Source of the DNA: an uncultured Clostridia bacterium
GTDB lineage: Bacteria > Bacillota > Clostridia > Oscillospirales > Ruminococcaceae
DNA: 43,401 nucleotides
NCBI GenBank assembly: GCA_947627045.1
Contig: CANQUM010000015.1
Span: 1 to 43,401 of the forward strand
Direction: 5' to 3'
In this document: in pieces, positions 13,289 through 29,068 of the stretch
How positions within the stretch are numbered: the first letter of the stretch is position 1
Layout of the letters: each line of letters begins with the position of its first letter
Made by a program: the position numbers and the translations under genes
The notes under the pieces: model-generated
The model's database searches: none
What the model saw: only the letters and a program-made list of their open reading frames with translations
What the model was told of the DNA's origin: nothing

Positions 13289-13305
13289 TTAGGAGAAATA
13301 TTATA

Positions 13306-14112
13306 ATGAAAAGGATTATAAATCTATTGACAGCATTGGTTATGGCTATCAGTTTGATAGGAGTTATTCCAGTTGTAAATGTATGTGGTGAAACCGCAAA
13401 TCCAACCACAGGTTTATCAACAACTGTTTCGCCTATGACAGTTGTTAAGCCATCTTTAGTCTCCAGACCAACTTCAATAAAACCAACTACACCGAAAAAA
13501 AGATCAGTTACTAAAGAAAAAACAACTATTAAAGCAACTGAAAAGGCTACAAAAACCATAACCAAAGCTCAGGCTAGAGAAATAATGAAAAAGGCAAAAA
13601 TTAAAAAACTTAAAGTTGCAAGTAGAGACAATAAAATACTAGCAAATTGGAAATATATTAAAAATGCAACAGGTTATAAAATGCAAGTTTCAAACACTAA
13701 AAATTTTAAAAAAATAATTAAAACTGTTAATGTAAGAAATCCTAAAGAAAAAATTGTTGATGGTGATAATATTGCTTATTATGAACCTAGTATGGCAGGT
13801 ATTATGGTAAATAAAAAATTTCCAGCCGGTAATTCATATTATATTAGGGTTAGACCATATATTAAATATAAAACTAAAAAAGGAACTAAAAAGGCTTATG
13901 GAGCATGGAAAAAATCTAAAAGGATAAAAATAATTAAATCATCAATTAAAAGATCTTGGTGGTTAACAGATCAGTGGAAAACTTATAGTTATATAGATAT
14001 TAATAATAATTATTGGAATTCGGATGGATATTTCTGTAAATACGGAAATATGTTAAAAAAGAGTGGTGGTTTTTCTTCATATGAGATAAAACATATATTA
14101 AGTGAAATTTAA
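13306..14112 (+). CDS. Exported protein with a Fn3-like domain, function unknown
   Basis: The 268-residue product has a signal peptide resembling the LRR protein (NLLTALVMAISLIGVIPVV). A Thr/Pro/Lys-rich spacer follows (about 30-100), then an Fn3-like domain (about 100-205) with ILANWKYIKNATGYKMQVS and YYIRVRPYIKYKTKKG strands. A unique tail has aromatic clusters (SWWLTDQWKTYSYID, NNNYWNSDGYFCKYG). The tail has no family I recognise. AGGAG lies 11 bases before ATG 13306 and only 17 bases separate it from the LRR gene, so co-transcription is likely. It lies just upstream of the FtsX permease array and could be a substrate or partner, but nothing in the sequence proves this. Confidence 0.7.
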   Translation: MKRIINLLTALVMAISLIGVIPVVNVCGETANPTTGLSTTVSPMTVVKPSLVSRPTSIKPTTPKKRSVTKEKTTIKATEKATKTITKAQAREIMKKAKIKKLKVASRDNKILANWKYIKNATGYKMQVSNTKNFKKIIKTVNVRNPKEKIVDGDNIAYYEPSMAGIMVNKKFPAGNSYYIRVRPYIKYKTKKGTKKAYGAWKKSKRIKIIKSSIKRSWWLTDQWKTYSYIDINNNYWNSDGYFCKYGNMLKKSGGFSSYEIKHILSEI

Positions 14113-14211: not shown

Positions 14212-14243
14212 AAAGCGTTCGGAATTTTTCCGAACGCTTTTTT
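14212..14243 (+). terminator. Strong terminator between the exported proteins and the permease array
   Basis: AAAGCGTTCGGAA pairs perfectly with TTCCGAACGCTTT around a three-base loop and runs into a T6 tract. The rest of 14113-14443 contains the possible peptide ORF, AT-rich DNA and the promoter at 14381. Confidence 0.92.
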
Positions 14244-14373: not shown

Positions 14374-14449
14374 AATATTATTGCTATTTTTTTAGAAAAA
14401 TGTTATAATTAATAAGTAAAATACATCAGGGGGAAATAGGTTTATGAGG
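14374..14449 (+). repeat. Duplicated promoter/start segment, copy 1
   Basis: This segment matches 24995-25069 from AATATTATTGCTATTTT through TTATGAGG with scattered substitutions. It carries the promoter, leader and ribosome binding site of A1. It marks A1-B1 and A6-B6 as a segmental duplication. Confidence 0.8.
14381..14409 (+). promoter_or_regulatory. Promoter of the array (A1 copy)
   Basis: TTGCTA and TATAAT (14404-14409) are 17 bases apart, 35 bases before the A1 start. The whole segment 14374-14449 is repeated almost unchanged before A6 (24995-25069). Confidence 0.75.
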
Positions 14450-15646
14450 TACTTGTTTAAGAATATCGGTCAGTTTATAAAACATAGCAAAGTTATCTTT
14501 GCTGTGTTTGTTATATGTGAAATCACAAGCCTTATGCTTATGATTTTCTCATATGGCATTTATCAAAACTATTCTCAGCAGGTAAAGGAGATAGCGTCGA
14601 ACGAACCAATTGAAGAAGAAATGGAATGGTTAAGATTTAATTTTTCTTCCGACATTAATGAGGATAATCCTATAACTAATGAGACAGTATTTGCATTTAT
14701 GAATGAGCTCTCTGACACTATCGGTGATAAAATAGGCAATGTTTATTTTAAGAGCAAAGACTATGATATGTCGTTGTCCTACAATAAGGGGTGGGAAATG
14801 ACAAATATAGGTCATAATCTTAAGGTGAACGGTGATTGGTACAGCGGCAGATACTTAAACAGAAAAGATTATGATAATGCCGCAAAGGTATGCGTTGCGC
14901 CAATTGAGTGTTATAAGGAAGTCGATGATGAAGTAGGCTATGATGATGAAATGTCTCCAAAGGATTTTAAATATCAGGCTTATGATAAAGATGGAAAGAA
15001 GTACATAGATTTGCCTATTGGTACATTTGAGGTAGTAGGTTTCTATAAAAGTTTTTCCGGTTTGAATTACATTCCGTATTCTACGCTGCCTCTTGACGCT
15101 AAAATAATAAGCTTGCCCAGTCTTGAAATAAAACAGATTCTTTTTCAGGATGAATATAACGGAGTTGTCAACTTATATGAAAAATACTTTGGGGATCATA
15201 TTACATCAGAAGACGAGTCAGATATGCCGGTATATGACGAGGAGGTTCTCAAAACATTTAAAACTAAAATGACGATCAGCATAATAATTGCGATAATATC
15301 TTCTATCAATATAGCAGCATTATTTAAGTTTGTAATTGAATTAAGACGCAGACAGATGTCGATATTCAGAATAAATGGCTGTACAAAAAACAAATTGCGA
15401 AGAATGATGATATTTGAAATGATGTTTTACAGTATTGTTAATGCGGCGATATGCGTAACTGTTTTCCATTTGTTTATTTTACCTAAGTTAGCAAAGATTT
15501 TCCCGTATATTTCACTTGCATACACGCCAAAAGGATATGCTCTGCTTATTGCCATATATTTAGCAATAACATATATAATTCAAAATATTATGATAATACT
15601 CAGTGTATCACATTCGCCGGTTAAAATGTTAAAGGTCAGGAGGTAA
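14444..15646 (+). CDS. FtsX/MacB-type permease A1
   Basis: The 400-residue protein has one N-terminal membrane span (about 17-40, containing FSYGIYQNY) and an extracytoplasmic domain of about 235 residues. Three C-terminal spans follow (about 278-300, 328-350, 372-394). The ectodomain has the MacB-like strand YSGRYLNRKDYDNAAKVCVA. The span-2 to span-3 loop has MSIFRINGCTKNKLRRM, the FtsX hallmark of a x-F-R-x-x-G-x-T-x-x-x-L-R-R helix. Such proteins do not usually form a classic import channel. They couple cytoplasmic ATP hydrolysis to movement of an outer domain. A1 is closely related to A6 and pairs with B1, four bases downstream. It begins the array under its own promoter. Its ligand is unknown. 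Confidence 0.85.
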   Translation: MRYLFKNIGQFIKHSKVIFAVFVICEITSLMLMIFSYGIYQNYSQQVKEIASNEPIEEEMEWLRFNFSSDINEDNPITNETVFAFMNELSDTIGDKIGNVYFKSKDYDMSLSYNKGWEMTNIGHNLKVNGDWYSGRYLNRKDYDNAAKVCVAPIECYKEVDDEVGYDDEMSPKDFKYQAYDKDGKKYIDLPIGTFEVVGFYKSFSGLNYIPYSTLPLDAKIISLPSLEIKQILFQDEYNGVVNLYEKYFGDHITSEDESDMPVYDEEVLKTFKTKMTISIIIAIISSINIAALFKFVIELRRRQMSIFRINGCTKNKLRRMMIFEMMFYSIVNAAICVTVFHLFILPKLAKIFPYISLAYTPKGYALLIAIYLAITYIIQNIMIILSVSHSPVKMLKVRR

Positions 15647-15650
15647 AGAG

Positions 15651-16895
15651 ATGAAAATTACAGCACCAAAATACGGCTTTAAAGAGTTTAAAAGAAATAT
15701 ACTTTTTAATCTTTTTATAATTGCACAGCTTACAGCTGTATTTATTCTGATGATTTATAGTATATCTTCTGTATCTTATGTTTATAAGTTTTATGATCCA
15801 ATAAAAGATTATATTAAAGGAAACGGAATTTGTACGGAGTTAACCAATTATAATGTTGAAAAACAGGTAAAGGCTCTTGATTATGTAGACAGTGTTTATT
15901 CTTTTAATGTTTGTGGCGGTGATGTTAATGATAATAATGCATATTATAATGAAAACTATACAAATGTAAATGTAAATTGCTATGATAATAAATTTATAAA
16001 TGATTATAAGCCGTTTCTTGAAAGGGGAGAGTGGCTGGATAAATATGAAACACAAACTGACGGTTATATAAATACAGTAGTGTCGTATAATCCTACATAT
16101 GATATAGGTGATACTTGTACATTAGTTTTCGACCCAGATAATCCGGAAAATAAATTAGAGTTGAAATTCAGAATAGTTGGAATGTTATGCGACGGTGCAA
16201 AAGTATTAACTCCTTATGAACTTACCAGTAAAGTTACTGACGTACAGTCTCTTTACAGAAATTATTATATGGAGGATCATTATAATCAGTATAATCATAC
16301 ATATGATCTGCTTTTTATAACAAAGGATGCAACTGATATTGTAGGCGGCTATCCTGGAATGTCATTTGTGAAATTCAAAGACGGTTACAGTCAAGACGAG
16401 TTAGAGAAAATTTATGCTGATTTGGGTGATAAGTTTGAAGACGATGTTGATTTAGTCTGGAACTTAAAAACCGAACGTATTAGAGAAAAAAGCTATAAAA
16501 CAATTAACGAGCAAAAAATGATGATGATGCCACTTATAGTTGGAATAGTTATACTTATCATAGTAAGTGTTTTCAGTATGAGTGCGATAAGCTCAAACAA
16601 ACAGCTTAAAAACTACGGTATATATACAGTATCGGGAGCGACGCGAAAAAGGTGTATTTTCATACAGATGTGGAATGTGTTTTACAGCTGTGTACTGTCG
16701 GTAGTGCTGGCGTATGTGGTATTCAAACTTATGACTGTGGGCGGTATTATAAGCTCGTCAATTGTCAGCATAGGCAAAAACGAACTATTGGCTTGCGGAG
16801 CAATAATAGTCATAGCGATAATAGCGTCAGCGGTAATGCCTGCTATAATCATAGGCAGGGCACAGGCAAAAGAGATGCTTAAAGAGGAAGAATAA
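15651..16895 (+). CDS. FtsX/MacB-type permease B1
   Basis: The 414-residue protein of the B class starts MKITAPKYGFKEFKRNILFN. It has a first span (about 18-42), an extracytoplasmic domain of about 245 residues, and three C-terminal spans starting near residues 290, 335 and 375. The loop KNYGIYTVSGATRKRCIFI is the FtsX-like motif. The ectodomain contains GEWLDKYE and LKFRIVGMLCDGAK, matching the MacB periplasmic core pattern. It would form a heterodimer with A1. The AGGAGGTAAAGAG binding site overlaps the A1 3' end. Its last about 390 bases are nearly identical to B6, while the ectodomain-coding region differs clearly. No ATPase domain is present; the only ATPase is at 27555. Confidence 0.85.
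   Translation: MKITAPKYGFKEFKRNILFNLFIIAQLTAVFILMIYSISSVSYVYKFYDPIKDYIKGNGICTELTNYNVEKQVKALDYVDSVYSFNVCGGDVNDNNAYYNENYTNVNVNCYDNKFINDYKPFLERGEWLDKYETQTDGYINTVVSYNPTYDIGDTCTLVFDPDNPENKLELKFRIVGMLCDGAKVLTPYELTSKVTDVQSLYRNYYMEDHYNQYNHTYDLLFITKDATDIVGGYPGMSFVKFKDGYSQDELEKIYADLGDKFEDDVDLVWNLKTERIREKSYKTINEQKMMMMPLIVGIVILIIVSVFSMSAISSNKQLKNYGIYTVSGATRKRCIFIQMWNVFYSCVLSVVLAYVVFKLMTVGGIISSSIVSIGKNELLACGAIIVIAIIASAVMPAIIIGRAQAKEMLKEEE
16503..16895 (+). repeat. 3' direct repeat shared by B1 and B6, copy 1
   Basis: By eye this segment differs from 27128-27520 at about a dozen positions, mostly silent. It codes for the C-terminal spans of the B permease. The upstream ectodomain-coding halves are much less alike. 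Confidence 0.85.
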
Positions 16896-16933
16896 GAAAC
16901 AAAAAAATTATTAAAATATTGAGGAAGCAGATT

Positions 16934-18097
16934 ATGAACATATTTAGACTTATATTTCACGATTTTAAATCGTACAGAATTGTTTCAATACTTATAGTGC
17001 TTAACATAATTATTTCTGCGTTTGTAATTTGTTTTTCTTATGGTATTTATCAGAATTACAATGTTCAGATAGACGAGGGTGAAAGCTCACAGCGGCAGTT
17101 AAGTATTATACATACTTCAAGCGACGGTATAGCTAAAACTTCTGTTACTACAAAGATGGTTATTGACACAGTAAAAAGTCTTTCTGACAAAACGCTCAAT
17201 AATATTGATTATTTTTATTGTTCAGCAGTTATTCCCACATCTGCAATGGAAATGAATTGTTTTGAATTTAGCTTTTCATATGATAACGGAAAATTTCATA
17301 ATGAAATTTTTACAGATGAGCAATATAATTCATATGATAAAATTATTGCGATAACCCCTGTTTTAAGAACTAAAGATGCAGTGGACCATGGTATAACGGT
17401 AATAGATATAGGTGATTGGAATGCTGTGTGTATAGGAGATACAGATACTATTGATGTAAACGGTGAGAAATTTAAAATAGTAAATGAGAATCTTTCTGAA
17501 TTAGACGGACTTATGATAGCACCTATAACTTCATTTTATAATGATACACCGTTACGTGGAAGAAACCAAAGTGTTGAAATTAATTTTAAAACTGATATTT
17601 CACGTTCGCAGTATGATGATATTGTAAATGCAGTTGCAATGAATATGGGGGATAACGCAGAAGTCCCTGAGATGGATATTTCACCTGTTACAGAGCTGTT
17701 TTATTATCGTACTATAATGTTGATCTCAGTGCTTATTTCCATTCTTGCATCACTGAATTTTGCTGTGCTATACAGATTTATTCTTGAAAAGCGTATAAAA
17801 ACGCTGACTGTTTTCAGAATCTGCGGATGTACAAGGCTGAGAATGATTTTAACATATCTTTTGGAATGTGTTATAATAGGCTTACCGATATTTGCTCTTA
17901 CGCAGCTTGTATTTGATAAGTTTGCTTTGCCATTGCTTTCAAACATATTTGAATATATAGGTTATGCATATAGTCCGCTGCTGTATCTTGCAATTTTTGG
18001 TATCTATGCAATATCGAGCTTTATAATTTTGCTTATTATGATAAGTGTTTATATTTCAAGACGTTCAATTATTGAATTAAGGTCAGGTGATAAGTAA
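16934..18097 (+). CDS. FtsX/MacB-type permease A2
   Basis: ATG 16934 is chosen because GAGGA lies just upstream. A TTG at 16919 would precede that site. The 387-residue product begins MNIFRLIFHDFKSYRIVSIL, has a span with FVICFSYGIYQNYNVQ (about 18-42), an ectodomain of about 215 residues, and three C-terminal spans. The FtsX motif is LTVFRICGCTRLRMILTYL near residue 298. The C-terminal third is highly similar to A3, while the ectodomains differ at many positions (TDAVDHGITV region). The stop overlaps the B2 start by one base. It belongs to the second A-B pair of the array. Confidence 0.85.
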   Translation: MNIFRLIFHDFKSYRIVSILIVLNIIISAFVICFSYGIYQNYNVQIDEGESSQRQLSIIHTSSDGIAKTSVTTKMVIDTVKSLSDKTLNNIDYFYCSAVIPTSAMEMNCFEFSFSYDNGKFHNEIFTDEQYNSYDKIIAITPVLRTKDAVDHGITVIDIGDWNAVCIGDTDTIDVNGEKFKIVNENLSELDGLMIAPITSFYNDTPLRGRNQSVEINFKTDISRSQYDDIVNAVAMNMGDNAEVPEMDISPVTELFYYRTIMLISVLISILASLNFAVLYRFILEKRIKTLTVFRICGCTRLRMILTYLLECVIIGLPIFALTQLVFDKFALPLLSNIFEYIGYAYSPLLYLAIFGIYAISSFIILLIMISVYISRRSIIELRSGDK

Positions 18098-19332
18098 TGA
18101 TTTTAAAATCAGCGTTAAGACAACTTAAAAGAAACAAATTTATGAACACACTAATTGTAATTCAGCTTACTGCGGTTATGACGATACTATGCGTACTTGT
18201 AAGTATGGTTGAATCAAGAATGGTTTATTATAAACCGTTTGCAGAAGAGATAAATTCACAAGGTTATTTATGTGAATTTGATGAGGGTGAAATTATGGGT
18301 GAAAAGCAATTACTAAAAAAACTAAAAGGTACAAAATGTGAATTTACATATATGAATCAATATCCTATAAACATTAACAGCGATGATGTAACTATGGAAA
18401 ATGAAAATAAATATGTTCCATATGCAGATATTCTTTCAGAAAAATGGATAGATGTTTACACTCCGCGAATGCAAAGCGGAAGTTGGCTGAATAAACTGCC
18501 GGACGACGGATATATTCACGTTGTTGTAACTCAGGACAACAAGCTGGGGCTTAAAACAGGGGATATAATTACTCTTCACGGCTATGACTATGATTCTGAA
18601 AAAGATATTGAAGAAAAAGCAAAGGTCATCGGAGTTATGGAAAATAAGCAGTATTTCGTTGGGTTTTCTTCATTCTCTCAGACAGATATTGCTAACCGTG
18701 AGAACTTTTTTGATATGTACTACACCTATAATTCCAAAGTTGAAACACGTTGGGGACTATGCGTTCCTAAATCTGAAATAGAGAAAAGCCGGCTCTATGA
18801 CGGCAATTTTGTAGTAGATGGAATGGGATTTATACTATGCAACGGTATGAATGAAAAAGAGTTGAAAGAGGTAAAAAATTTTCTTGTGGGTAATGATTCT
18901 TCTTATATAATGCCTCTTGAGGAAATAAGAGAAAATAGCTATGCTTATATATACGAACAGCTCTATATACTTCTGCCTATAGCGTTGTGTATTTTCCTTT
19001 TAACGCTTATAACAACAGTTTCAGTAATAAGCATTTCTATCAACAAAGAGCTTAAAACCTATGCTACATTCTACATATGCGGTGCAAAATGGCGGGACTG
19101 TGCGTTTATATCCTTCCTGTATTCGCTGATAGTGTGTGTAATTTCAGGCGTGTTAAGTCTTGCGGCTATATTTATCATTATGCAAAACTCACTTACGGTA
19201 ATCAAGCTGGGCGTTTTTGAAGTTGCAGTAATGTTAGTTGCAGTAATTATTTATCTGATTTTATCGGCAGTTATGCCGCTTATTATAATTGGTAAAACAC
19301 AGCCTAAAGAGATACTTAATAAGGAAGAATAA
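18097..19332 (+). CDS. FtsX/MacB-type permease B2
   Basis: The 411-residue protein starts MILKSALRQLKRNKFMNTLI. It has an N-terminal span (about 17-40), an extracytoplasmic domain with MQSGSWLNKLPDDGYIHVVV and LKTGDIITLHGYDYD, and three C-terminal spans beginning near residues 290, 335 and 378. KTYATFYICGAKWRDCAFI is the FtsX loop. The QPKEILNKEE end resembles the other B proteins. It starts one base inside the A2 stop, so A2 and B2 are translationally coupled and likely form a heterodimer. It is more distant from B1 and B6 than they are from each other, and closer to B5 in the loop. The substrate is unknown. Confidence 0.85.
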   Translation: MILKSALRQLKRNKFMNTLIVIQLTAVMTILCVLVSMVESRMVYYKPFAEEINSQGYLCEFDEGEIMGEKQLLKKLKGTKCEFTYMNQYPININSDDVTMENENKYVPYADILSEKWIDVYTPRMQSGSWLNKLPDDGYIHVVVTQDNKLGLKTGDIITLHGYDYDSEKDIEEKAKVIGVMENKQYFVGFSSFSQTDIANRENFFDMYYTYNSKVETRWGLCVPKSEIEKSRLYDGNFVVDGMGFILCNGMNEKELKEVKNFLVGNDSSYIMPLEEIRENSYAYIYEQLYILLPIALCIFLLTLITTVSVISISINKELKTYATFYICGAKWRDCAFISFLYSLIVCVISGVLSLAAIFIIMQNSLTVIKLGVFEVAVMLVAVIIYLILSAVMPLIIIGKTQPKEILNKEE

Positions 19333-19370
19333 GAAACATAAAAAACTTTAAAATAGAGAGGGTGCTGATT

Positions 19371-20504
19371 ATGAATATATTTAAACTTATATTTCACGAT
19401 TTTAAATCGTACAGAATGATTTCAATACTTATAATACTTAATATAATAATTTCTGCATTTGTAATCTGCTTCTCTTATGGTATTTATCAGAATTACAATA
19501 CTGTAATCGTCGAGGGTGAAAGTGCAGAGCATGAATTGGAAATATTACCGACAAAAGAGAGCGATGATTATAAAAGTTCTATAACAACTAAAATGGTTAT
19601 TGATACTGTAAAAAGTCTGTCAGACGAAACGCTCGGCAATATTGAATATTTTTCATGTGAAACTTATCTTCCTACCTCTGCAATAGAAAAGAATTTATTT
19701 AATTTTAGGTTTTCCTATAATAACGGTAAATTCCATGACGATTTGTTTACAGATGAAGAATATAACTCCTATGATAAGATTGTATCTATAAGTTCTTCAT
19801 TCAGAAAAAAGAATACTAAATTGATTTCCGGAATTGGCAATGATACTTATATATCAAAATACATAGGCGATGCAAAAAGTATAGATATAAACGGAGAAGA
19901 ATTTAAAATTATTGACACATATTGCAGTATGATGGCTTCTCCTATAACTGCATTCAATAATGATACGCCGCTTGTAGAGGGGTTGTCAATTAGTTTCAAA
20001 ACTGATATTTCACGTTCGCAGTATGATGAAATAAAAAATTCTGTCGCAATGAATATGGGAAATAACGCGGAAGTTCCGGAGCTGGATATTACACCTGCAA
20101 GCGAGCTGTTTTATTACCGCACCATACTTATGATTTCAGTGCTTATTTCGATTCTTGCCGCATTGAATTTTGCTGTGCTATATAGGTTTGTTCTTGAAAA
20201 GCGTATTAAAATGCTGACCATCTTCCGTATCTGTGGCTGTACAAAGCTGAGAATGATTTTTACATATCTCTTGGAATGTGTTATAATAGGTTTACCGATA
20301 TTTGCACTTACGCTGATTGCTTTTGACAAGTTTGTTTTGCCATTGCTTTCAAATATTTTTGAATATATAGGTTATGCGTATAGTCCGATTTTGTATCTTG
20401 CGATTTTCGGTATCTATTCAGTATCGAGCTTTGTAATTCTGCTTATTATGATAAGCGTGTATATTTCAAGGCGTTCGATTACAGAGTTGAAAGCGAGAAG
20501 ATAA
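19371..20504 (+). CDS. FtsX/MacB-type permease A3 (no B partner)
   Basis: ATG 19371 follows GAGAGGGTG. The 377-residue product is a close paralogue of A2, sharing MNIFKLIFHDFKSYRMISIL and the C-terminal FtsX motif LTIFRICGCTKLRMIFTYL. It is shorter, mainly because the ectodomain region around residues 135-180 has a deletion (INGEEFKIIDTYCSMMASP). No B gene follows. Instead an A1-type fragment lies at 20512-20559 and then A4 begins. A3 would have to pair with a B protein from elsewhere in the array, form homodimers, or be inactive. Its frame is intact. Confidence 0.83.
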   Translation: MNIFKLIFHDFKSYRMISILIILNIIISAFVICFSYGIYQNYNTVIVEGESAEHELEILPTKESDDYKSSITTKMVIDTVKSLSDETLGNIEYFSCETYLPTSAIEKNLFNFRFSYNNGKFHDDLFTDEEYNSYDKIVSISSSFRKKNTKLISGIGNDTYISKYIGDAKSIDINGEEFKIIDTYCSMMASPITAFNNDTPLVEGLSISFKTDISRSQYDEIKNSVAMNMGNNAEVPELDITPASELFYYRTILMISVLISILAALNFAVLYRFVLEKRIKMLTIFRICGCTKLRMIFTYLLECVIIGLPIFALTLIAFDKFVLPLLSNIFEYIGYAYSPILYLAIFGIYSVSSFVILLIMISVYISRRSITELKARR

Positions 20505-20511
20505 TATTTCT

Positions 20512-20559
20512 CATTATTCTCATCAGGTTAAAGATATTGCATCAAATGAGCAATTTTAA
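20512..20559 (+). pseudogene. Fossil of an A1/A6-type permease
   Basis: In the A3-A4 gap one frame reads HYSHQVKDIASNEQF then TAA. This aligns with QNYSQQVKDIASNKP in A6 (DNA 25187-25230) and with the matching part of A1. The DNA CAGGTTAAAGATATTGCATC is identical to A6. No start codon or other permease sequence surrounds it, so it is a leftover from a deleted or recombined A gene. Confidence 0.8.
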
Positions 20560-20573
20560 CTGTTCAGACTATA

Positions 20574-20982
20574 TTTTTGGAGGTTGCCGATATGATTAAA
20601 TATGTATTTAAAAATATTAAAAGTTTAATAACTAAAGAAACCACTATTTTTGTAATAATTATTATATGCCAGGTTAGTAGTATTTTGCTTTCTTTGTTTT
20701 CATACGGCGTTTTTCAAAACTATAAGGCTGAGACAAATCAGATAAATTTGAATAATGAGATTATAACAAATGAAGATGATCAGCCTGAATTTGAATACGA
20801 TCTTGGAATAAACAAAAAGCATCCTGTTGATTATAAAACAATACAAGATTTATGCGATGAGGTCGGCAACCTGCTAAAAGATAAGGTGGCATGTTTATAT
20901 ATAGAATGTGATAATGATGTAATAATGACACTTGATTATATAAACGGTGTATATAAACCGGCTGAGGAATATTATAAAAACA
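20574..20982 (+). repeat. 5' direct repeat shared by A4 and A5, copy 1
   Basis: This segment, from TTTTTGGAGGTTGCCGATATG to about codon 130, is nearly identical to 22441-22849. The constant offset is 1867 bases. Identity falls abruptly afterwards in the ectodomain-coding part and returns near 21289. Confidence 0.85.
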
Positions 20983-21791
20983 CAGTATCGTACGGAGAAT
21001 GGATAGAAGGAGAATGGTTTACTGATGAGCAAATAGCAAATAATGAAAAGGTTTGTGTTATATCAGAAAATATGAAGGAGGATTCAACTTTAAGAACTGA
21101 GGATTTTAATTATAAGATAATACCGCTTGCCAAAAAAATCGGTGATGATTATTATATAACTATAAGAGGTGATAAATACCGAGTAATTGGAGTTATAAAA
21201 TTCCCTGAAATCGTAATGGTACCGTGGGGAGTTTTACCTGATGATTATCCCGTTGAAACCTCGCCTTCTTTTTTATTTAACAGGCAGTTGACCCAAAGGG
21301 AATATGACAGCCTGATAGCGATATATGAAAAATATTTTCCAGACAGAATGGGAGCTCCTGCCCCTGAACTGGAAATATACGACCCCGAGCAGGTTTATTA
21401 CTATAAAACGAATATGGCAATATCGTTGTTTATAGCAATAATATCGGCAATAAACTTTGCACTTTTGTTTAATTACATATTTGATAAGAGAAAATTCACA
21501 CTGGCTGTGCTTAGGCTTAACGGATGTACTGCTAATAAGGCAAGAAGAATGTATCTGAGTGAGATAATGATAATTATGATACCGTTATTGATTATATGCA
21601 CACTGGTGTTTAATAGATATATACTTCCGTGGATTGATGGGCTGTTTCCGTACATAAATCAGGTATACAGTCTAAAGATTTACGGAATAATGGCAGGAAT
21701 GTATGTAGCAGTATCATATATCATAATGAATATTATGATAATATTACATTTAAGAAAGACGCCTGTTCTGATTCTCAGGAACAGCAATTAA
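20592..21791 (+). CDS. FtsX/MacB-type permease A4 (B partner lost)
   Basis: ATG 20592 is preceded by TTTGGAGG at 20575-20582. The 399-residue protein starts MIKYVFKNIKSLITKETTIF. It has a first span with SILLSLFSYGVFQNY (about 20-45), an ectodomain containing GEWIEGEWFTDEQIANNEKV, and three C-terminal spans. The FtsX motif is LAVLRLNGCTANKARRMYL near residue 306. It is almost the same as A5 in the first about 130 and last about 165 residues, but differs in the patch between (SYGEWIEGEW to PSFLFNRQL). Right after its stop is a collapsed B gene start (21805-21837). A4 therefore probably once had its own B partner. The frame is intact. Confidence 0.85.
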   Translation: MIKYVFKNIKSLITKETTIFVIIIICQVSSILLSLFSYGVFQNYKAETNQINLNNEIITNEDDQPEFEYDLGINKKHPVDYKTIQDLCDEVGNLLKDKVACLYIECDNDVIMTLDYINGVYKPAEEYYKNTVSYGEWIEGEWFTDEQIANNEKVCVISENMKEDSTLRTEDFNYKIIPLAKKIGDDYYITIRGDKYRVIGVIKFPEIVMVPWGVLPDDYPVETSPSFLFNRQLTQREYDSLIAIYEKYFPDRMGAPAPELEIYDPEQVYYYKTNMAISLFIAIISAINFALLFNYIFDKRKFTLAVLRLNGCTANKARRMYLSEIMIIMIPLLIICTLVFNRYILPWIDGLFPYINQVYSLKIYGIMAGMYVAVSYIIMNIMIILHLRKTPVLILRNSN

Positions 21792-21804
21792 AGGAGAATT
21801 TATA

Positions 21805-21837
21805 ATAAGAAAGTATGTACTTAATGAGGAAAAGTAA
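21805..21837 (+). pseudogene. Collapsed B-type permease gene (start remnant)
   Basis: After AAAGGAG (21790-21796) and the same eight-base spacing as B5, an ATA stands where B5 has ATG. The frame reads RKYVLNEEK then TAA. RKYVLNE aligns with RRYALKE at the start of B5, while LNEEK plus stop also resembles the LNKEE end of B2. Either the N-terminus was cut short, or start and end were joined by deletion of the whole middle. The ATA start suggests it is not translated. Confidence 0.75.
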
Positions 21838-21875
21838 CAAATAAAATTACAATTTATTATAATAACTACATAATA

Positions 21876-21904
21876 TTGACAGCTATTTATTTGTATGATA
21901 TAGT
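21876..21904 (+). promoter_or_regulatory. Promoter of the small exported protein
   Basis: TTGACA (21876-21881) and TATAGT (21899-21904) lie 17 bases apart and about 50 bases before the start. This gives the embedded gene its own transcription start inside the array. Confidence 0.75.
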
Positions 21905-21956
21905 AATTATGCTGGCATATTTTGGTGGTTAAAGTAAAGGAAGGGGGTTGCTTGAA

Positions 21957-22388
21957 TTGAGAACAAAAAAACTTATATCTATTTTGTTAGCGGTATTATT
22001 ACTTGCATCGACTTGCGTGGTAACAGTTATGGGTTATGACAAGCCATTTAAGAAGGGCTATAGTTATAGCGCAAAGGACAGTAAAGGTTATGTAAAAATG
22101 GAATATCTGCATAATACCGCTGTCAATGTTGTAAACACATATGCAAATAATTTGACTAATACTCAAATTAAAGCAATTTTATCTGCTCAGACTAAAGGAA
22201 AAACACATGATAAATTAAAATGTGAAACAATTGATACAAGAATAATTAACTCTGGAGCTAAATCTGGTGTAGGTACTTCAGACTGGCGCAGTAAGAGTAC
22301 AAATGTTTACTATAGTCATTCAGTCGAAATTTTTGGAAGCATTGGAACTAGCTATATAGTTTCTTCGATTGAAAGAAAAGTTGGTTAA
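21957..22388 (+). CDS. Small exported protein embedded in the permease array, family unknown
   Basis: The likely start is TTG 21957 after AAAGGAAGGGGG (21936-21947). TTG 21948 is in frame but touches the binding site. The 143-residue product has a signal peptide with LISILLAVLLLASTCVVTVMG (about residues 6-26). The mature part of about 117 residues is polar and basic, with KGYVKMEYLHNTAVNVV near residue 45. It has one Cys (KLKCETID) and a beta-rich end with STNVYYSHSVEIFGSIG and a final ERKVG. I recognise no family. Its own consensus promoter and its position between two permease genes make it a candidate substrate, ligand or regulator of the transporter. A bacteriocin-like role is possible but there is no leader cleavage motif or modification gene. 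Confidence 0.65.
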   Translation: MRTKKLISILLAVLLLASTCVVTVMGYDKPFKKGYSYSAKDSKGYVKMEYLHNTAVNVVNTYANNLTNTQIKAILSAQTKGKTHDKLKCETIDTRIINSGAKSGVGTSDWRSKSTNVYYSHSVEIFGSIGTSYIVSSIERKVG

Positions 22389-22440
22389 GATTTCTGTAAA
22401 TTATTAACTATTTAGCTATATTCAGCTAAATAAATTTATC

Positions 22441-22849
22441 TTTTTGGAGGTTGCCGATATGTTGAAATATGTATTTAAAAATATTAAAAGTTTAATAACT
22501 AAAGAAACCACTATTTTTGTAATAATTATTATATGCCAGGTTAGTAGTATTTTGCTTTCTTTATTTTCATACGGCGTTTTTCAAAACTATAAGGCTGAGA
22601 CAAATCAGATAAATTTGAATAATGATATTATAACAAATGAAGATGATCAGCCAGAATTTGAATACGATCTTGGAATAAACAAAAAGCATCCTGTTGATTA
22701 TAAAACAATACATGATTTATGCGAAGAAGTCGGCAACCTGCTTAAAGATAAGGTGGCATGTTTATATATAGAATGTGATAATGATGTAATAATTACACTT
22801 GATTATATAAACGGTGTATATAAGCCGGCTGAAGATTATTATAAAAACA
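22441..22849 (+). repeat. 5' direct repeat shared by A4 and A5, copy 2
   Basis: Second copy of the segment at 20574-20982, again starting with TTTTTGGAGGTTGCCGATATG. It carries the A5 ribosome binding site and its first about 130 codons. Confidence 0.85.
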
Positions 22850-23664
22850 ATGTAATGCTGGGAGATTGGTTAGAAGGAGAATGGTTTGAAGATGAACAGA
22901 TTAAGAATTCAGAAAAGGTTTGCGTTATAGCAGAGCCTATGAAAGAAGATTATACGGAAAGAGATGAGGATTTTAATTATAAAAGAACGCCGCTAGCTAA
23001 AAAAAGAGGTAACGATTATTATGTAACTTTAAGTGGTGAGGAGTTTAGAGTAATTGGATTTCTAAGTAAAAGACACTTTAATTTGGTTTTAGTTCCATGG
23101 GGAGTTTTACCTGATGATTTTCCCGTTGAAACCTCGCCTTATTTCTTATTTAACAGAAAGCTTACGCAAAGGGAATATGACAGCCTGATAGCGATATATG
23201 AAAAATATTTTCCAGACAGAATGGGAGCGCCTGCACCTGAACTGGAAATATACGACCCCGAGCAGGTGTATTACTATAAAACGAATATGGCAATATCGTT
23301 GTTTATAGCAATAATATCGGCAATAAACTTTGCACTTTTGTTTAATTACATATTTGATAAGAGAAAATTCACACTGGCTGTGCTTAGGCTTAACGGCTGT
23401 ACTGCAAACAAGGCAAGAAGAATGTATCTGAGTGAGATAATGATAATTATGATACCGTTATTGCTGATATGCACACTGGTGTTTAATAGATATATACTTC
23501 CGACGATTGACAAACTATTCCCATATATAGATCAGGTGTACAACTTAAAAGTATACGGAATAATGGTCGGAATTTATATGGCAGTATCATATATCATAAT
23601 GAATATTATGATAATATTACATCTAAGAAAGACGCCTGTTCTGATTCTCAGGAACAGCAATTAA
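22459..23664 (+). CDS. FtsX/MacB-type permease A5
   Basis: ATG 22459 follows TTTTTGGAGG. The 401-residue protein is a recent paralogue of A4, with the same N-terminal span, the same FtsX motif LAVLRLNGCTANKARRMYL and the same C-terminal LRKTPVLILRNSN. The ectodomain patch from about residue 131 to 235 differs by many substitutions and small indels (LGDWLEGEWFEDEQIKNSEK; FLSKRHFNLVLVPWG in place of VIKFPEIVMVPWG). Short islands of identity such as PWGVLPDD remain. It is followed 13 bases later by an intact B5, so it is probably the functional form of the A4/A5 pair. The gene begins right after the small exported protein. Confidence 0.85.
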   Translation: MLKYVFKNIKSLITKETTIFVIIIICQVSSILLSLFSYGVFQNYKAETNQINLNNDIITNEDDQPEFEYDLGINKKHPVDYKTIHDLCEEVGNLLKDKVACLYIECDNDVIITLDYINGVYKPAEDYYKNNVMLGDWLEGEWFEDEQIKNSEKVCVIAEPMKEDYTERDEDFNYKRTPLAKKRGNDYYVTLSGEEFRVIGFLSKRHFNLVLVPWGVLPDDFPVETSPYFLFNRKLTQREYDSLIAIYEKYFPDRMGAPAPELEIYDPEQVYYYKTNMAISLFIAIISAINFALLFNYIFDKRKFTLAVLRLNGCTANKARRMYLSEIMIIMIPLLLICTLVFNRYILPTIDKLFPYIDQVYNLKVYGIMVGIYMAVSYIIMNIMIILHLRKTPVLILRNSN

Positions 23665-23677
23665 AGGAGGTATCATT

Positions 23678-24937
23678 ATGCGTAGATATGCACTTAAGGA
23701 ATTTGTCAGAAATATTAAGTTCAATATATTTATTATCATACAGCTTGCTTTTGTATTCGCAATGATAGTATTTGCAGTTTCAAGTGTTTTACAGAATTTG
23801 AGATACTATATACCACTTAGCGATTATTTAAGTAAAGACGGAGCATATATTTTTGTTTCAAAGACCGTTGATACATCAAAAGACAAAAACGCTCTGGTTA
23901 ATTCCAGCGAGTATTTTGATGATGCTCTTTTTACAGGACAGGTGTTATTGGAAAAAGAGTTGACAGATGAAGAGCTTGCCAAGACACAGTCGGGAGATTT
24001 TGTCGGAGCTGATAAAAACCCTTATGACGCAAATGCTTATGCGTATTATAAGAATGTTGCAGATTTATACACGCCCATTATGGTTGGCGGAGATTGGCTT
24101 TCTGAGGTCGATAAATACGGCGGTGAAGATGATGTTTTGCACGCTGTAATAACTGAAAATGATTATGGTCTTAAGGTTGGAGATGTTTATACTCAGTCGC
24201 TGCCAATAGTCGACAGAGGTTTTAAAAATGTTAAGATAAAGATAATCGGCGTTATGAAAAGCGGTACAAGAAGCTTCGGAATGATAACCCGTTACAGATC
24301 GGATATTACTTTGGACGCAAAAGAGATGTTTAAAAGCTATGACGTCAATCAGGAGGGAGTACCTCTTGTGTTATTCTCAGCAGAGGAACTTGATAAAATA
24401 AATTGTCTTCAATCGGTTATGGGCGGAATGATGATGAAGTTCAAAGACGGATTGAGTGATGAGGAATATATAAACGCTGTGAATTCTACATACTCGCTTG
24501 GCACATCAGTTGAATTTAAAGAAATCCGTGAAAACAGCCTGAAAGAAATCAAAAATCAGATGACTGTTCTCGCACCGATAATAGGCGGAATAATTCTGCT
24601 TGTTATAGTCAGCGTTTTGAGTATGTCGGCGGTTAATACAAATAAACAGCTGAGAAATTATGGTATTTATTATATGTGCGGCTGCAAATGGCGGCAGTGT
24701 GCAATGATAAATGCGTTGAGTATTTTTATATCTGAGGCTGTTGCGGCAATTCTGGCATATGTGGCATTGAGAGGAGCTAAAATTGCAGGTTTACTTAGCA
24801 ATACAGTTGTTACTTTTGGAAAATGGCAGTTAATAGGCTGTTTATGTATAGCGGTTATAACATTGATCGTTGCACTTATTATGCCTGTACTTATAATAGG
24901 AAAATCCACACCTCGCGAGATTATAAAAGCACGTTAA
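23678..24937 (+). CDS. FtsX/MacB-type permease B5
   Basis: The 419-residue protein starts MRRYALKEFVRNIKFNIFII. It has a first span (about 13-37), the largest ectodomain of the array (about 265 residues, with MVGGDWLSEVDKYGGEDDVL and LKVGDVYTQSLP), and three C-terminal spans. The FtsX loop is RNYGIYYMCGCKWRQCAMI near residue 327. The end PREIIKAR departs from the KEEE-type end of the other B proteins. It should pair with A5. AAAGGAGG lies before the ATG. After its stop comes about 60 bases of featureless AT-rich sequence and then the duplicated promoter of A6. Confidence 0.85.
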   Translation: MRRYALKEFVRNIKFNIFIIIQLAFVFAMIVFAVSSVLQNLRYYIPLSDYLSKDGAYIFVSKTVDTSKDKNALVNSSEYFDDALFTGQVLLEKELTDEELAKTQSGDFVGADKNPYDANAYAYYKNVADLYTPIMVGGDWLSEVDKYGGEDDVLHAVITENDYGLKVGDVYTQSLPIVDRGFKNVKIKIIGVMKSGTRSFGMITRYRSDITLDAKEMFKSYDVNQEGVPLVLFSAEELDKINCLQSVMGGMMMKFKDGLSDEEYINAVNSTYSLGTSVEFKEIRENSLKEIKNQMTVLAPIIGGIILLVIVSVLSMSAVNTNKQLRNYGIYYMCGCKWRQCAMINALSIFISEAVAAILAYVALRGAKIAGLLSNTVVTFGKWQLIGCLCIAVITLIVALIMPVLIIGKSTPREIIKAR

Positions 24938-24994
24938 TAGAATGTTGTACTAAATCTCCACAATCTATTTATGCAAATTTCTAAAAAATCTAGA

Positions 24995-25069
24995 AATATT
25001 ATTGCTATTTTATTAGAAAAATGTTATAATTAATAAGTGAATTATATCAGGGAGACATAGATTTATGAG
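24995..25069 (+). repeat. Duplicated promoter/start segment, copy 2
   Basis: Matches 14374-14449 before A1. It provides TTGCTA (25002-25007), TATAAT (25025-25030) and the GGGAG binding site for A6. Confidence 0.8.
25002..25030 (+). promoter_or_regulatory. Promoter of A6-B6-ATPase
   Basis: TTGCTA and TATAAT with a 17-base spacer lie 35 bases before A6, copied from the A1 promoter. It probably drives A6, B6 and the ATPase at 27555, so the ATPase would be transcribed even if the upstream array were lost. Confidence 0.75.
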
Positions 25070-26273
25070 GTACTTGTTTAAGAATATTGGTCAGTTTATA
25101 AAACATAGTAAGGTTATCTTTGCTGTGTTTGTTATATGTGAAATCACAAGTCTAATGCTTATAATATTTTCATATGGTATATATCAAAATTATTCACAGC
25201 AGGTTAAAGATATTGCATCAAATAAACCTATTAATGAAGAACAGGAATGGTTAAGATTTGATTTTGCATCAGATATTGATGAAGATAATTCTATTTCTAA
25301 TGAATTAGTTTTTTCCTTTATTACTGAGTTTGGTGAGGCTCTTGGAAATAAGATTGGTGATGTTAGTTTTAATTGCAACGGCTATTATATGTCTCTTTCT
25401 TATGATAACGGCTGGCAAATGTATGATATTGGACATAACCTTGAGATATATGGGGAATGGTATAACGGAAGATATTTAAACAAAAAAGATTATGACAATG
25501 CTGCAAAGGTATGTGTTGCTCCTATTGAGTGCTATAAGGAAATTGAGGATGAACTTGACTATGATTATAATGATGAGGTAAGCCCAAAGGATTTTGAATA
25601 TCAGGCATATGATAGGAACGGAAAGAAGTACATAGATTTGCCGGAGGGTACCTTTGAAGTTGTAGGCTTTACTAAAATGTCTAATTTTGAGTATTATATA
25701 CCTTATACTGTTATGCCTTTAGATGCAAAAGTAACAAACTTTCCAGAAATCGAAATGAAGCAGATACTTTATAAGAATGAGTATAATAAGGCAGTAAATA
25801 TAATAAAAAAATATTTTGGGGAACATTTAGTCTCAGATGACAATTCGGATATGCCTGTATATGATGCAGAAGTTTTAAAGACTTTTAAGACTAAAATGAC
25901 AATAAGTATAATAATTGCGATAATATCGTCTATAAATATAGCGGCATTATTTAAGTTTGTTATTGAAATACGGCGTAAGCAGATGTCTATATTCAGAATA
26001 AACGGCTGTACTAAAAATAAACTGCGTAGAATGTTGATATTGGAAATGTTATTTTACAGTATAGTTAATTCGGCAGTTTGCATAAGTATCTTCCATTTTG
26101 TTATACTGCCGAAAATTGCTGATATGTTCCCGTATATATCGCTTGCATATACTTTAAAGGGATATGGATTGCTTATACTGATATATCTTGCAGTAACATA
26201 TATAATTCAGAACATTATGATAATATCAAGTATTTCACGTTCACCTGTTAAAATGCTAAAGGTCAGGAGGTAA
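25065..26273 (+). CDS. FtsX/MacB-type permease A6
   Basis: The 402-residue protein is the paralogue of A1. It shares the first about 47 residues almost exactly (MRYLFKNIGQFIKHSKVIFA on), the MSIFRINGCTKNKLRRM FtsX motif and the SPVKMLKVRR end. The ectodomain (about 50-275) has many differences, for example SFNCNGYYMSLSYDNGWQM against VYFKSKDYDMSLSYNKGWEM in A1. Both retain YNGRYLNKKDYDNAAKVCVA-type MacB sequence. It has one N-terminal and three C-terminal spans. It is paired with B6, five bases downstream, and lies closest to the ATPase. The B6 binding site AGGAGG overlaps its 3' end. Confidence 0.85.
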   Translation: MRYLFKNIGQFIKHSKVIFAVFVICEITSLMLIIFSYGIYQNYSQQVKDIASNKPINEEQEWLRFDFASDIDEDNSISNELVFSFITEFGEALGNKIGDVSFNCNGYYMSLSYDNGWQMYDIGHNLEIYGEWYNGRYLNKKDYDNAAKVCVAPIECYKEIEDELDYDYNDEVSPKDFEYQAYDRNGKKYIDLPEGTFEVVGFTKMSNFEYYIPYTVMPLDAKVTNFPEIEMKQILYKNEYNKAVNIIKKYFGEHLVSDDNSDMPVYDAEVLKTFKTKMTISIIIAIISSINIAALFKFVIEIRRKQMSIFRINGCTKNKLRRMLILEMLFYSIVNSAVCISIFHFVILPKIADMFPYISLAYTLKGYGLLILIYLAVTYIIQNIMIISSISRSPVKMLKVRR

Positions 26274-26278
26274 GATAT

Positions 26279-27520
26279 ATGAAAATCACAGCACCAAAAT
26301 ACGGCTTTAAAGAATTTGAAAGAAATATATTTTTTAATTTATTTATTATTATACAGATAACTGCTGTGCTTATCCTGATGGTCTATAGCATTTCCTCAAC
26401 GGCATATATTTCAAAATTCTATAATCCTATAAAAGAATATTTAGAGGGGAACGGACTTTGCACAAAGATAACAAATTATGGAATATCTAATGAGGTTGAA
26501 GCTCTTGATTATGTTGATAGTATTTACTCTTTTAATAGCTGTCAAGGTTTTACTAACAATAATAATGAATTTTATAATAATAAAAGTGCTGATATATATG
26601 TAAACAGCTATGATGATAAGTTTATAAATAATTTTGAACCGCTGCTTGAAAAGGGAGAATGGCTGGATAAATATGAAGCTGAGTCAGACGGCTGTGTAAA
26701 TGTGGTAATTGGTTATAATGAAGAATATAATGTCGGAGATGTATGTGAGGTTATTTTTGGTCCTGAGGACCCTAGTTATACACAAAAATTAAAATTTAGA
26801 ATAGTAGGAATGTTAAGTGACGGTGCAAAGATTTTAAATTTCTACGAAAGCACTGACGAAGTTACAGACGCAGAATCTTTATATCAAAACTATTATATGA
26901 ATGAACATTTTAATTCTTTTAATAAAAATTATGATTTGTTTTTTATTACAAAAGAAAATGTTTTAAATTTGGGTTATCCAGGAATGTCATTTGTAAAATT
27001 TAAAGATGGCTACAGTCAAGATGATTTAGAGAAAATTTATGCTGATTTGGGCAATAAGTTTGAAGATGATATAGATTTAATGTGGAATATGAAAACCGAA
27101 TACATAAGAGAGGCAAGCGTTAAATCAATAAATGAGCAAAAAATGATGATGATGCCACTTATAGTTGGAATAATTATACTTATTATAGTAAGCATTTTCA
27201 GTATGAGTGCGATAAGCTCAAACAAACAGCTTAAAAACTACGGTATATACACCGTATCGGGAGCGACACGAAAAAGGTGTATTTTCATACAGATGTGGAA
27301 TGTGTTTTACAGTTGCGTACTGTCGGTAGTGCTGGCGTATGTGGTATTCAAACTTATGACTGTGGGCGGTATTATAAGTGCGTCAATTGTCAGCATAGGC
27401 AAAAACGAACTATTGGCTTGCGGAGCAATAATAGTCATAGCGATAATAGCGTCAGCGGTAATGCCTGCGATAATCATAGGCAGGGCACAGGCAAAAGAGA
27501 TGCTTAAAGAGGAAGAATAA
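26279..27520 (+). CDS. FtsX/MacB-type permease B6
   Basis: The 413-residue protein is the paralogue of B1 and begins MKITAPKYGFKEFERNIFFN. After the first span its ectodomain (about 45-285) diverges from B1 (YGISNEVEALDYVDSIYSFN; NNNNEFYNNKSADIYVNSYD). From NEQKMMMMPLIVGIIILIIV to the end KEMLKEEE it is almost identical. The FtsX loop is KNYGIYTVSGATRKRCIFI. It should form a heterodimer with A6 and couple to the ATPase encoded 34 bases downstream. Together A6, B6 and the ATPase form a complete MacB-like transporter without the rest of the array. Confidence 0.86.
   Translation: MKITAPKYGFKEFERNIFFNLFIIIQITAVLILMVYSISSTAYISKFYNPIKEYLEGNGLCTKITNYGISNEVEALDYVDSIYSFNSCQGFTNNNNEFYNNKSADIYVNSYDDKFINNFEPLLEKGEWLDKYEAESDGCVNVVIGYNEEYNVGDVCEVIFGPEDPSYTQKLKFRIVGMLSDGAKILNFYESTDEVTDAESLYQNYYMNEHFNSFNKNYDLFFITKENVLNLGYPGMSFVKFKDGYSQDDLEKIYADLGNKFEDDIDLMWNMKTEYIREASVKSINEQKMMMMPLIVGIIILIIVSIFSMSAISSNKQLKNYGIYTVSGATRKRCIFIQMWNVFYSCVLSVVLAYVVFKLMTVGGIISASIVSIGKNELLACGAIIVIAIIASAVMPAIIIGRAQAKEMLKEEE
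27128..27520 (+). repeat. 3' direct repeat shared by B1 and B6, copy 2
   Basis: Second copy of the segment at 16503-16895, in the same orientation 10.6 kb away. Recombination between the copies would delete A2 through A6 and leave A1 with a hybrid B1/B6 gene next to the ATPase. Confidence 0.85.
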
Positions 27521-27554
27521 TAAATAATATAAATTAAAACAGGAGGAAAACATC

Positions 27555-28220
27555 ATGGTAAAACTCAACGACATTGTAAAGGTTTACAACCCAAAGAAGG
27601 CGAACGAGTTCGAGGCACTGCACGGAGTATCGTGCGAAATCAACGACGGCGAGATGGTAGCTGTAATTGGAAAATCGGGAGCGGGGAAGTCAACGCTTCT
27701 GCACATTTTAGCGTGTATTGACAACTATCAGGACGGTGAATACACAATTGACGACACACTTGTAAAGAAGCTGTCTGAGCGTCAGTATGCAAAGATCCGC
27801 AACGAAAAGATAGGAATGGTAATGCAGGATTTTGCGTTGGTAGAAGATTTCTCGGCGATAGAAAACGTAATGATACCGTTGTCGTTCTCGAAGAAAAAGA
27901 TCAAGAACAAAAAGGGCAAGGCACTTGAGGCACTCAAAGCAGTAGGGATTGAGGAGCTAGCAAAGAAGCCGTGCAACAAGCTGTCGGGAGGACAGAAACA
28001 GAGGGTAGCGATAGCTCGGGCAATAGTAAACGAGCCGAGTATGATTCTAGCCGACGAGCCGACGGGTGCACTAGACACAAAGACATCGGCAGAGATAATC
28101 GAGCTATTCAAGTCGCTTAACGAGCAGGGCAGAACGGTAATAATCGTAACGCACGACCCGAAGGTAGCCGAGCAATGCGACAGGATTATCGAAATAAGCG
28201 ACGGAAACATAGTTGCGTAG
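27555..28220 (+). CDS. ABC ATPase of the permease array (MacB/LolD type)
   Basis: The 221-residue ATPase has Walker [20 protein letters not shown] near residue 38, Q-loop [20 protein letters not shown] near 91, signature [15 protein letters not shown] near 144, Walker [17 protein letters not shown] near 164 and switch His IIVTHDPKV near 197. The D-E-P-T-G-A-L-D and I-x-N-V-x-x-P patterns place it with the MacB/LolD/SalX ATPases that work with FtsX-type permeases. It is the only ATPase in the array, so ten permeases would have to share it. By eye its DNA is clearly richer in G+C at third positions than the permease genes. AGGAGG precedes the ATG and a terminator follows. Confidence 0.93.
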
Positions 28221-28822: not shown

Positions 28823-28869
28823 AATGCTAATAAATCATTATAAATATTTACGGCGTTGAAGGAATTATC

Positions 28870-29068
28870 CGTAATCAGATTTTTCTCAGAGAGGAAACGC
28901 AAGCTGAAAGTTTTCAAAAATCTTTACGGTGGCTGCCCTGAGCCTTGCGGCAAACCGCAACGTATGTCTGCGTTAAGGGCATAGAGCGGCTGGAAGTATT
29001 TTAATTTCAGCAATTTGGGTGGTACCACGGATTTAAACTTCGTCCCATTTTTGGGGTGAAGTTTTTTT
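28870..29068 (+). ncRNA. T-box riboswitch of alaS
   Basis: The leader contains a stem I-like region beginning with CAGAGAGGAAACG. The T-box core follows as TTGGGTGGTACCACGG at 29015-29030, whose TGGT can pair with the ACCA end of uncharged tRNA-Ala. A terminator comes next: AAACTTCGTCCC / GGGGTGAAGTTT with a T7 tract (about 29035-29068). T-boxes switch on aminoacyl-tRNA synthetase genes when the cognate tRNA is uncharged. The specifier codon is likely one of the GCC/GCT triplets near 28930-28945, but I could not fold the stem to fix it. Together with the promoter this fills the gap 28798-29120. Confidence 0.88.

Follow-up and report, generated by a model that had tools for sequence, protein, structure and literature searches.

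A row of ten FtsX-type half-permeases with one ATPase and a small secreted protein in an uncultured Ruminococcaceae bacterium: a possible shared-motor array

The window analysed here is a stretch of 43,401 nucleotides from an uncultured Clostridia bacterium of the Ruminococcaceae (assembly GCA_947627045.1, contig CANQUM010000015.1), and the system in question is an array of transporter genes within it. On the + strand the gene order is A1 B1 A2 B2 A3 A4 S A5 B5 A6 B6 ATPase, where A and B are two families of half-permease and S is a small predicted secreted protein. All ten permease open reading frames (ORFs) and the ATPase lie on the + strand with zero internal stops. A sequence-only reading of this DNA had described six A and four B half-permeases with one N-terminal and three C-terminal spans ahead of one MacB/LolD-type ATPase, and the ORFs and hydropathy confirm this. 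It had also described the permeases as lying in a row. They are indeed followed by the ATPase, but the S gene (21948-22388), which had not been listed, interrupts the row between A4 and A5. Four of the A genes are paired with a B, and A3 and A4 stand unpaired.

The A proteins are A1 (14444..15646, 400 aa, Pfam FtsX 35.1 bits), A2 (16919..18097, 392 aa, TTG start, 25.1 bits, just under the cut-off of 25.5), A3 (19362..20504, 380 aa, GTG start, 27.6 bits), A4 (20577..21791, 404 aa, TTG start, FtsX 25.8 and MacB_PCD 30.2 bits, both above cut-off), A5 (22444..23664, 406 aa, TTG start, 26.4 bits), which is the partner of S and B5, and A6 (25065..26273, 402 aa, 32.7 bits). The B proteins are B1 (15651..16895, 414 aa, 11.8 bits), B2 (18097..19332, 411 aa), B5 (23678..24937, 419 aa) and B6 (26279..27520, 413 aa, 15.1 bits); B1, B2 and B5 are placed in the B family by alignment. 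FtsX thus exceeds its cut-off in five of the ten permeases, all of them A (A1, A3, A4, A5 and A6), and in no B; A2, B1, B2 and B6 fall below it, and B5 is unmatched at E<=1. S is 146 aa as called, and the array closes with an ATPase of 221 aa (27555..28220; ABC_tran 116 bits).

By hydropathy, each of the ten permeases has one hydrophobic region at the N-terminus and three at the C-terminus, with an additional region at 203-221 in A4. A structural model of A5 (predicted local distance difference test, pLDDT, 78.1) has the same 1+3 topology. It has 40 matches in the PDB at E<=0.001, with TM-scores that are low (0.16-0.38 by query length); the best (4.7e-10) is Streptococcus pneumoniae 5xu1, and MacB, YtrEF, LolCDE, HrtBA and BceAB are also matched. 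Against the sequences of solved structures, the A profile finds only MacB (E 0.012) and the B profile nothing relevant at E<=1. The system is a type VII ATP-binding cassette (ABC) system, of the MacB/FtsX kind, by topology and, for A, by fold. A mobile origin was considered and rejected: B5 has no plasmid match and the B profile no viral-contig match.

Conservation is unevenly spread along these proteins. In alignments of 14 sequences each, mean pairwise identity is highest in the cytoplasmic loop between the second and third transmembrane segments (TM2-TM3; 0.48 in A, 0.51 in B) and lowest in the outer domains (0.17 in A, 0.20 in B). The location of the divergence supports the earlier suggestion that the outer domain is the specificity part.

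Several of the permeases are recognisable duplicates. A1 and A6 are 75% identical, as are B1 and B6, and the paralogues A2 and A3, and likewise A4 and A5, share DNA blocks that are 96-97% identical; these duplicated blocks show the route by which the array has grown. Similar arrays closed by one ATPase occur in other genomes of the genus. Together with the duplicates, this means that the array is not a chance pattern or one confined to a single assembly. In four paralogue comparisons, nonsynonymous divergence (dN) is lower than synonymous divergence (dS) in every region.

The ATPase did not multiply in the same way. Clade members were defined as hits of at least 275 bits with the window ATPase. 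The organism is closely related to Clostridia assembled from rabbit-gut metagenomes. The earlier claim of many permeases and one ATPase was tested by looking for a second such ATPase in its own genome (G000; 2.1 Mb, 75 contigs), and is supported: the array ATPase scores 469.6 bits against itself, and the next hit, on contig C34, reaches 182.9 bits at 46% identity. The C34 gene belongs to a distinct second system of two FtsX-like permeases and an ATPase (L059:8660-11742), one stretch of which matches TIGR01654 at 37 bits, below cut-off. The genome holds eight A, six B and one clade ATPase; two more A-B pairs lie on contigs C24 and C10 with no clade ATPase beside them. The C10 pair (L058) follows directly on an ABC ATPase and an ABC-2-like permease, an order found in four genomes (also L064, L110 and L108); at L108 a 151-aa ORF stands where S would be.

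Ten of 13 genomes of the genus contain A, B and a clade ATPase together, and all of these are absent from the other three (G009, G010, G011; G010 gives just two ATPase hits, of 235-239 bits). Each of the ten has one clade ATPase, with one to seven B hits. Eight further genomes, picked for having hits, contain one to 13 B hits each; their clade ATPase is single except in G024 and G160, which have two. Beyond this the distribution is sparse, with the system found in 18 of 247 genomes of an order sample and 9 of 393 of a class sample in which at most four candidates were scored per genome. In another genus of the family (g48; G066, G118, G160) most A and B occur as fusion proteins of about 790-880 aa, encoded on several contigs. 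There no permease gene adjoins the clade ATPase gene in G066, nor one of the two copies in G160; the G066 gene, flanked on both sides by genes of the opposite strand, is 600 bases away from the end of its contig. These lone genes are the strongest sign that the ATPase works in trans, as it probably does.

The ATPase is 95-100% identical to that of the window in five genus genomes and 81-89% identical in four more. For three of those five (G003, G004, G014), the permease outer domains are 68-86% identical to those of the window. For comparison, AlaS is 92% and the ATPase 95% identical in G003. The ATPase gene also has a third-position GC content of 0.59, against 0.24-0.35 in the permeases, and among 16 loci with both kinds of gene the ATPase value is above the local permease mean in 15, often being above the value for other genes as well. 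High expression as the cause was rejected, since rpsB and tsf in locus L046 have values of 0.29 and 0.31.

Of 77 B genes, 71 come right after an A gene, and this, with the fusions in g48, indicates fixed pairs. The outer domains of A and B within one module correlate at 0.95 (26 pairs). The free mixing of A and B proposed earlier does not fit these observations, and is hinted at solely by the orphan genes A3 and A4.

The S gene begins with TTG, its exact start being uncertain, and encodes a protein with a signal-peptide-like N-terminus and a mature part of about 117 aa with a net charge of +8, modelled as all-beta at low confidence (pLDDT 65.6). Homologues stand at the same place in relatives. 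Seven loci consist of S, A, B and ATPase, one of each (L038, L040, L055, L062, L080, L086, L090), and in L052 (G006) three successive S-A-B units are followed by one ATPase. A search for small secreted ORFs was made with a heuristic rule (same strand, gap below 400 bases, 85-215 aa, positively charged start, N-terminal hydrophobic stretch). Such an ORF immediately precedes 31 of the 81 A genes, against 1 of the 77 B genes, none of the 19 fused genes and 43 of the 624 remaining genes, in 76 sources; Fisher tests for A give 4.6e-13 against other genes and 6e-10 against B, with counts that are non-independent because the genomes are related. A cysteine is present at the signal-peptide end of the window S and absent in the S of G004 and G014; this lack of conservation argues that S is not a lipoprotein.

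In some relatives regulators lie near the modules, these being LytTR/GHKL or agr genes. An AgrB gene, identified with Pfam, adjoins S-A-B in four loci (L038, L039, L040, L041), accompanied by a kinase and a regulator that are Pfam-confirmed in L038 and assigned from size and order in L039-L041. In L080 a kinase and a LytTR regulator lie immediately upstream of S. The presence of AgrB fits a quorum-regulated secreted product. The earlier reading had noted that no two-component regulator or HlyD-like adaptor was present. This holds for a Pfam scan of 20 window proteins, which covered the genes from 9865 to 34364, but is qualified by the AgrB genes of the four relatives.

S and the outer domain of A change together. 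In the comparison with the sister genome G012, eight permeases have outer domains with 96-100% identity, the ATPase and AlaS reach 100% and the membrane parts 88-100%. S is 89% identical over residues 1-95 and 71% from residue 96 to the end, and the A5 outer domain 86%, with a dS of 0.31 against 0.04-0.14 in other outer domains. Binned DNA identity falls to 0.87, 0.71 and then 0.49 from the S C-terminus into the intergenic gap, and to 0.78, 0.68 and 0.80 in the A5 outer domain. Among seven S-A pairs, drawn from six genomes and including two that share one S, the identity of the S C-terminus correlates with that of A regions 51-130, 131-225 and 226-265 (r 0.68, 0.70 and 0.66; p 0.002, 0.02 and 0.003), against r 0.13 for both span 1 and spans 2-4 (p 0.34 and 0.31). 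Across 30 S-A pairs the simple correlations are 0.95 for the outer domain, 0.81 for spans 2-4 and 0.77 for span 1; the partial correlation is 0.86 for the outer domain given spans 2-4, and -0.01 for the reverse. The A outer domain still adds 0.56 when that of B is given (26 pairs).

We propose, at slightly less than even confidence, that this is a shared-motor array for bacteriocin-like secreted proteins and their cognate A-B protection transporters, most of which stand here without an S. Each module would be a heterodimer of A and B type VII half-transporters whose outer domains set its specificity; the full unit, as in relatives, would add an S of about 145 aa encoded just 5' of A, and one ATPase. 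Since the permeases multiplied and the ATPase did not, we infer that one LolD-like ATPase docks on every A-B pair in the cell, presumably through the conserved cytoplasmic TM2-TM3 loop and including the pairs encoded on other contigs. S would most likely be a secreted effector resembling a bacteriocin. At the membrane surface the outer domain of the matching A, together with B, would recognise it, and movement driven by ATP would strip it off or expel it, so that the producer and its kin are protected. Such movement has a precedent in type VII mechanotransmission, in which the movement of spans on ATP binding is relayed to the outer domain, as described in the available text of PMC5985334. Modules without an S may be orphan protection against the S variants of neighbours. 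In a bolder form, put forward more tentatively, the system would be a plug-in arsenal, in which one promiscuous type VII ATPase powers arrayed and scattered A-B outer-domain receptors that neutralise fast-diversifying and partly quorum-regulated S proteins. New specificities would then arise through recombination of S C-termini and of A outer domains, with no change to the membrane and motor interface.

A number of observations weigh against this proposal. The window S has no lactococcin_972 match in Pfam or NCBIfam at E<=1 and no bacteriocin family above cut-off. The same holds for its homologues (eight in Pfam; seven and six in NCBIfam); one of them (L052:5627-6067) gives a weak match to the bacteriocin model NF053514, of 15.6 bits with a cut-off of 40, over the signal-peptide end. 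The S model, itself weak, has no structural match at E<=0.001. Only one of the six window A genes has an S upstream and none of the fusions does, and S is thus not essential to the transporter. The outer domains of B correlate with S at 0.94, close to the 0.95 of A, and similar evolutionary rates may therefore explain part of the S-A correlation. Identity to G012 dips elsewhere too: in the membrane part of A2 (0.81-0.89), at 16351 (0.87), around 16891 at the B1-A2 junction (0.65), at 23470 (0.80) and at segment ends. Finally, in lactococcin-972 loci, which share the gene order, the role of the transporter is itself given as untested in the available text of PMC11796350.

The same co-variation would suit a ligand as well as a toxin. 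S may be a secreted ligand or modulator of A-B, with the modules sensing or signalling at the surface, possibly in self-recognition, and the shared ATPase driving or gating the signal. There is precedent for this in YsaD, a secreted peptide whose gene accompanies those of the Bce-like YsaCB and which is proposed to modulate signalling (PMC7438565, from the text available), and in FtsX, which acts with an extracellular partner, EnvC (PMC7668044, likewise); the regulators that adjoin some modules also fit. However, most modules in the window have no S, and S is highly diverse between modules, a pattern that suits an arms race better than a fixed modulator. We regard a signalling role as unlikely, though as the main rival. 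The combinatorial sensing or export system envisaged in the sequence-only reading, with any A pairing with any B in competition for one ATPase, would account for the excess of A over B in the genome (eight against six), for A3 and A4, and for a docking loop conserved in all. It is improbable given the regular succession of B after A and the fusions in another genus, and the within-module correlation of the outer domains is as expected for fixed pairs, with rate effects being possible.

Two further explanations concern what the permeases do with S, or whether most of them do anything. The A-B-ATPase complex might extract S from the membrane or release it, and do so with other proteins of the surface, much as LolCDE extracts lipoproteins, and the closeness of the ATPase to LolD and the match of the A5 model to LolCDE chains are in its favour. 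S has no conserved signal-peptide-end cysteine, however, and many modules have no S, so that such a role is very improbable. That the array consists mostly of redundant duplicates, with only the A6-B6 pair beside the ATPase functional and the others decaying, might be supposed from the three of four pairs that have no S and from the unpaired A3 and A4. Yet all ten permeases are open, dN is below dS in each region of the four paralogue comparisons, and both arrays and off-contig pairs are retained in several genomes, which makes wholesale decay hard to credit.

Some further features of the locus may be described. Promoter-like sites, known only as consensus matches (130, where shuffles give an expectation of 85.7), precede A1 (14381..14409, + strand), A6 (25002..25030, with two hexamers identical to those of the A1 site) and S (21876..21904). 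A 13-pair hairpin lies about 36 bases past the start codons of A1 (14480-14509) and A6 (25101-25130). It is nearly identical in relatives, with folding z-scores of -6.9 to -6.5 in four sequences and differences retained as G-U pairs, and is a possible RNA control element within the coding sequence. Just 5' of the array (11996-14112) are genes for an fn3-containing leucine-rich-repeat protein of the BspA type and for a secreted-looking protein of 268 aa, followed by a terminator-like hairpin (14212-14240). Upstream (8310-10584) are two more genes and another ABC ATPase gene, whose product is 31% identical to the array ATPase over the matched part. On the 3' side of the ATPase come a CmpB-like membrane gene and then alaS, preceded by a T-box leader (RF00230, 100.9 bits, 28847-29050).

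Several known systems come close to the array, among them the lactococcin-972 loci. These loci (e.g. scbABC) encode a secreted bacteriocin, a DUF1430/TIGR01654 permease and a TIGR03608 ATPase, in the same gene order as the S-A-B-ATPase unit (PMC11796350, from the text available). The likeness extends to a Sec-type secreted protein and to the array ATPase, whose best NCBIfam match is TIGR03608 (231.5 bits, short of the cut-off of 254.85), followed by LolD (227.1 bits) and MacB; for the ATPases of two relatives the MacB or LolD models outscore TIGR03608. In the array, however, S matches no lactococcin family, membership of lactococcin-972 being unsupported by the Pfam and NCBIfam family scans, the permease is split into halves, and there are many permeases per ATPase. 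TIGR01654/DUF1430 has no match among six window permeases, and a stretch of B6 gives 23.7 bits in the own-genome search (cut-off 189.35). In profile comparison the DUF1430 group reaches 91% with B and 90% with A, which may point to distant kinship, but only 4.5% with the fused A-B profile; A against B, which surely belong to one superfamily, gives 94.8%. The idea that A-B is a split DUF1430 permease received mixed results. Right after the array of G004 (L046:16145-19258) are genes for a protein of 172 aa that has a span near its N-terminus, for a permease of 650 aa that weakly matches DUF1430/TIGR01654 and for a TIGR03608-like ATPase, which from their sequences appear to be a lactococcin-972-like trio beside the proposed shared-motor array. 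In G138 a 95-aa secreted ORF (L128:5914-6201), which may resemble lactococcin 972, adjoins a TIGR01654-like permease and an ATPase.

MacB, YknZ and 5xu1 resemble the array in fold, in the 1+3 half-permease with a large outer domain and in the separate ATPase. They differ in having one permease rather than an A-B pair, and an ATPase that is not predicted to be shared; the HlyD/MacA-like adaptor of the tripartite MacAB was absent among the 20 window proteins scanned with Pfam. LolCDE likewise combines two unlike half-permeases with a single LolD-type ATPase, but the array S lacks the conserved signal-peptide cysteine of a lipoprotein and there are many permease pairs per ATPase. BceAB-type modules, including YsaDCB, are type VII ABC systems that protect the surface against peptides (PMC7038271), and YsaDCB includes a secreted peptide (PMC7438565), as far as the available texts of these papers go. 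BceB is a single ten-span permease with one outer domain in the available text of PMC5985334, whereas the array has four-span halves of about 380-419 aa with an outer domain on each, and the same Pfam scan of 20 window proteins shows no BceRS-like two-component system. By the features tested, the system falls outside the lactococcin-972, BceAB and MacAB kinds. In the literature searched, which left most subscription journals outside its scope, no description was found of such a system or of a shared motor for type VII permeases.

The joint change of S and the A outer domain supplies a natural series in which to look for the targets of such transporters, and it bears on the role of the transporter genes in lactococcin-972 loci. 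Through the link of S with A and B, an unnamed family of proteins in gut Clostridia, comprising secreted proteins and transporters that at times lie next to agr-type genes, also gains a testable role in strain competition. In the type VII ABC systems compared here, one ATPase works with one or two permeases. Sharing on a larger scale is described for MsmK, one ATPase for several sugar importers (PMC4519317), and MceG, one ATPase for several Mce systems (PMC9947336), in the portions of those papers available. The array would resemble them in having one ATPase serve several transporters, and differs in that theirs are importers. If our proposal is correct, a single motor for six to ten or more transporters specified by their outer domains would be the type VII counterpart of MsmK or MceG.

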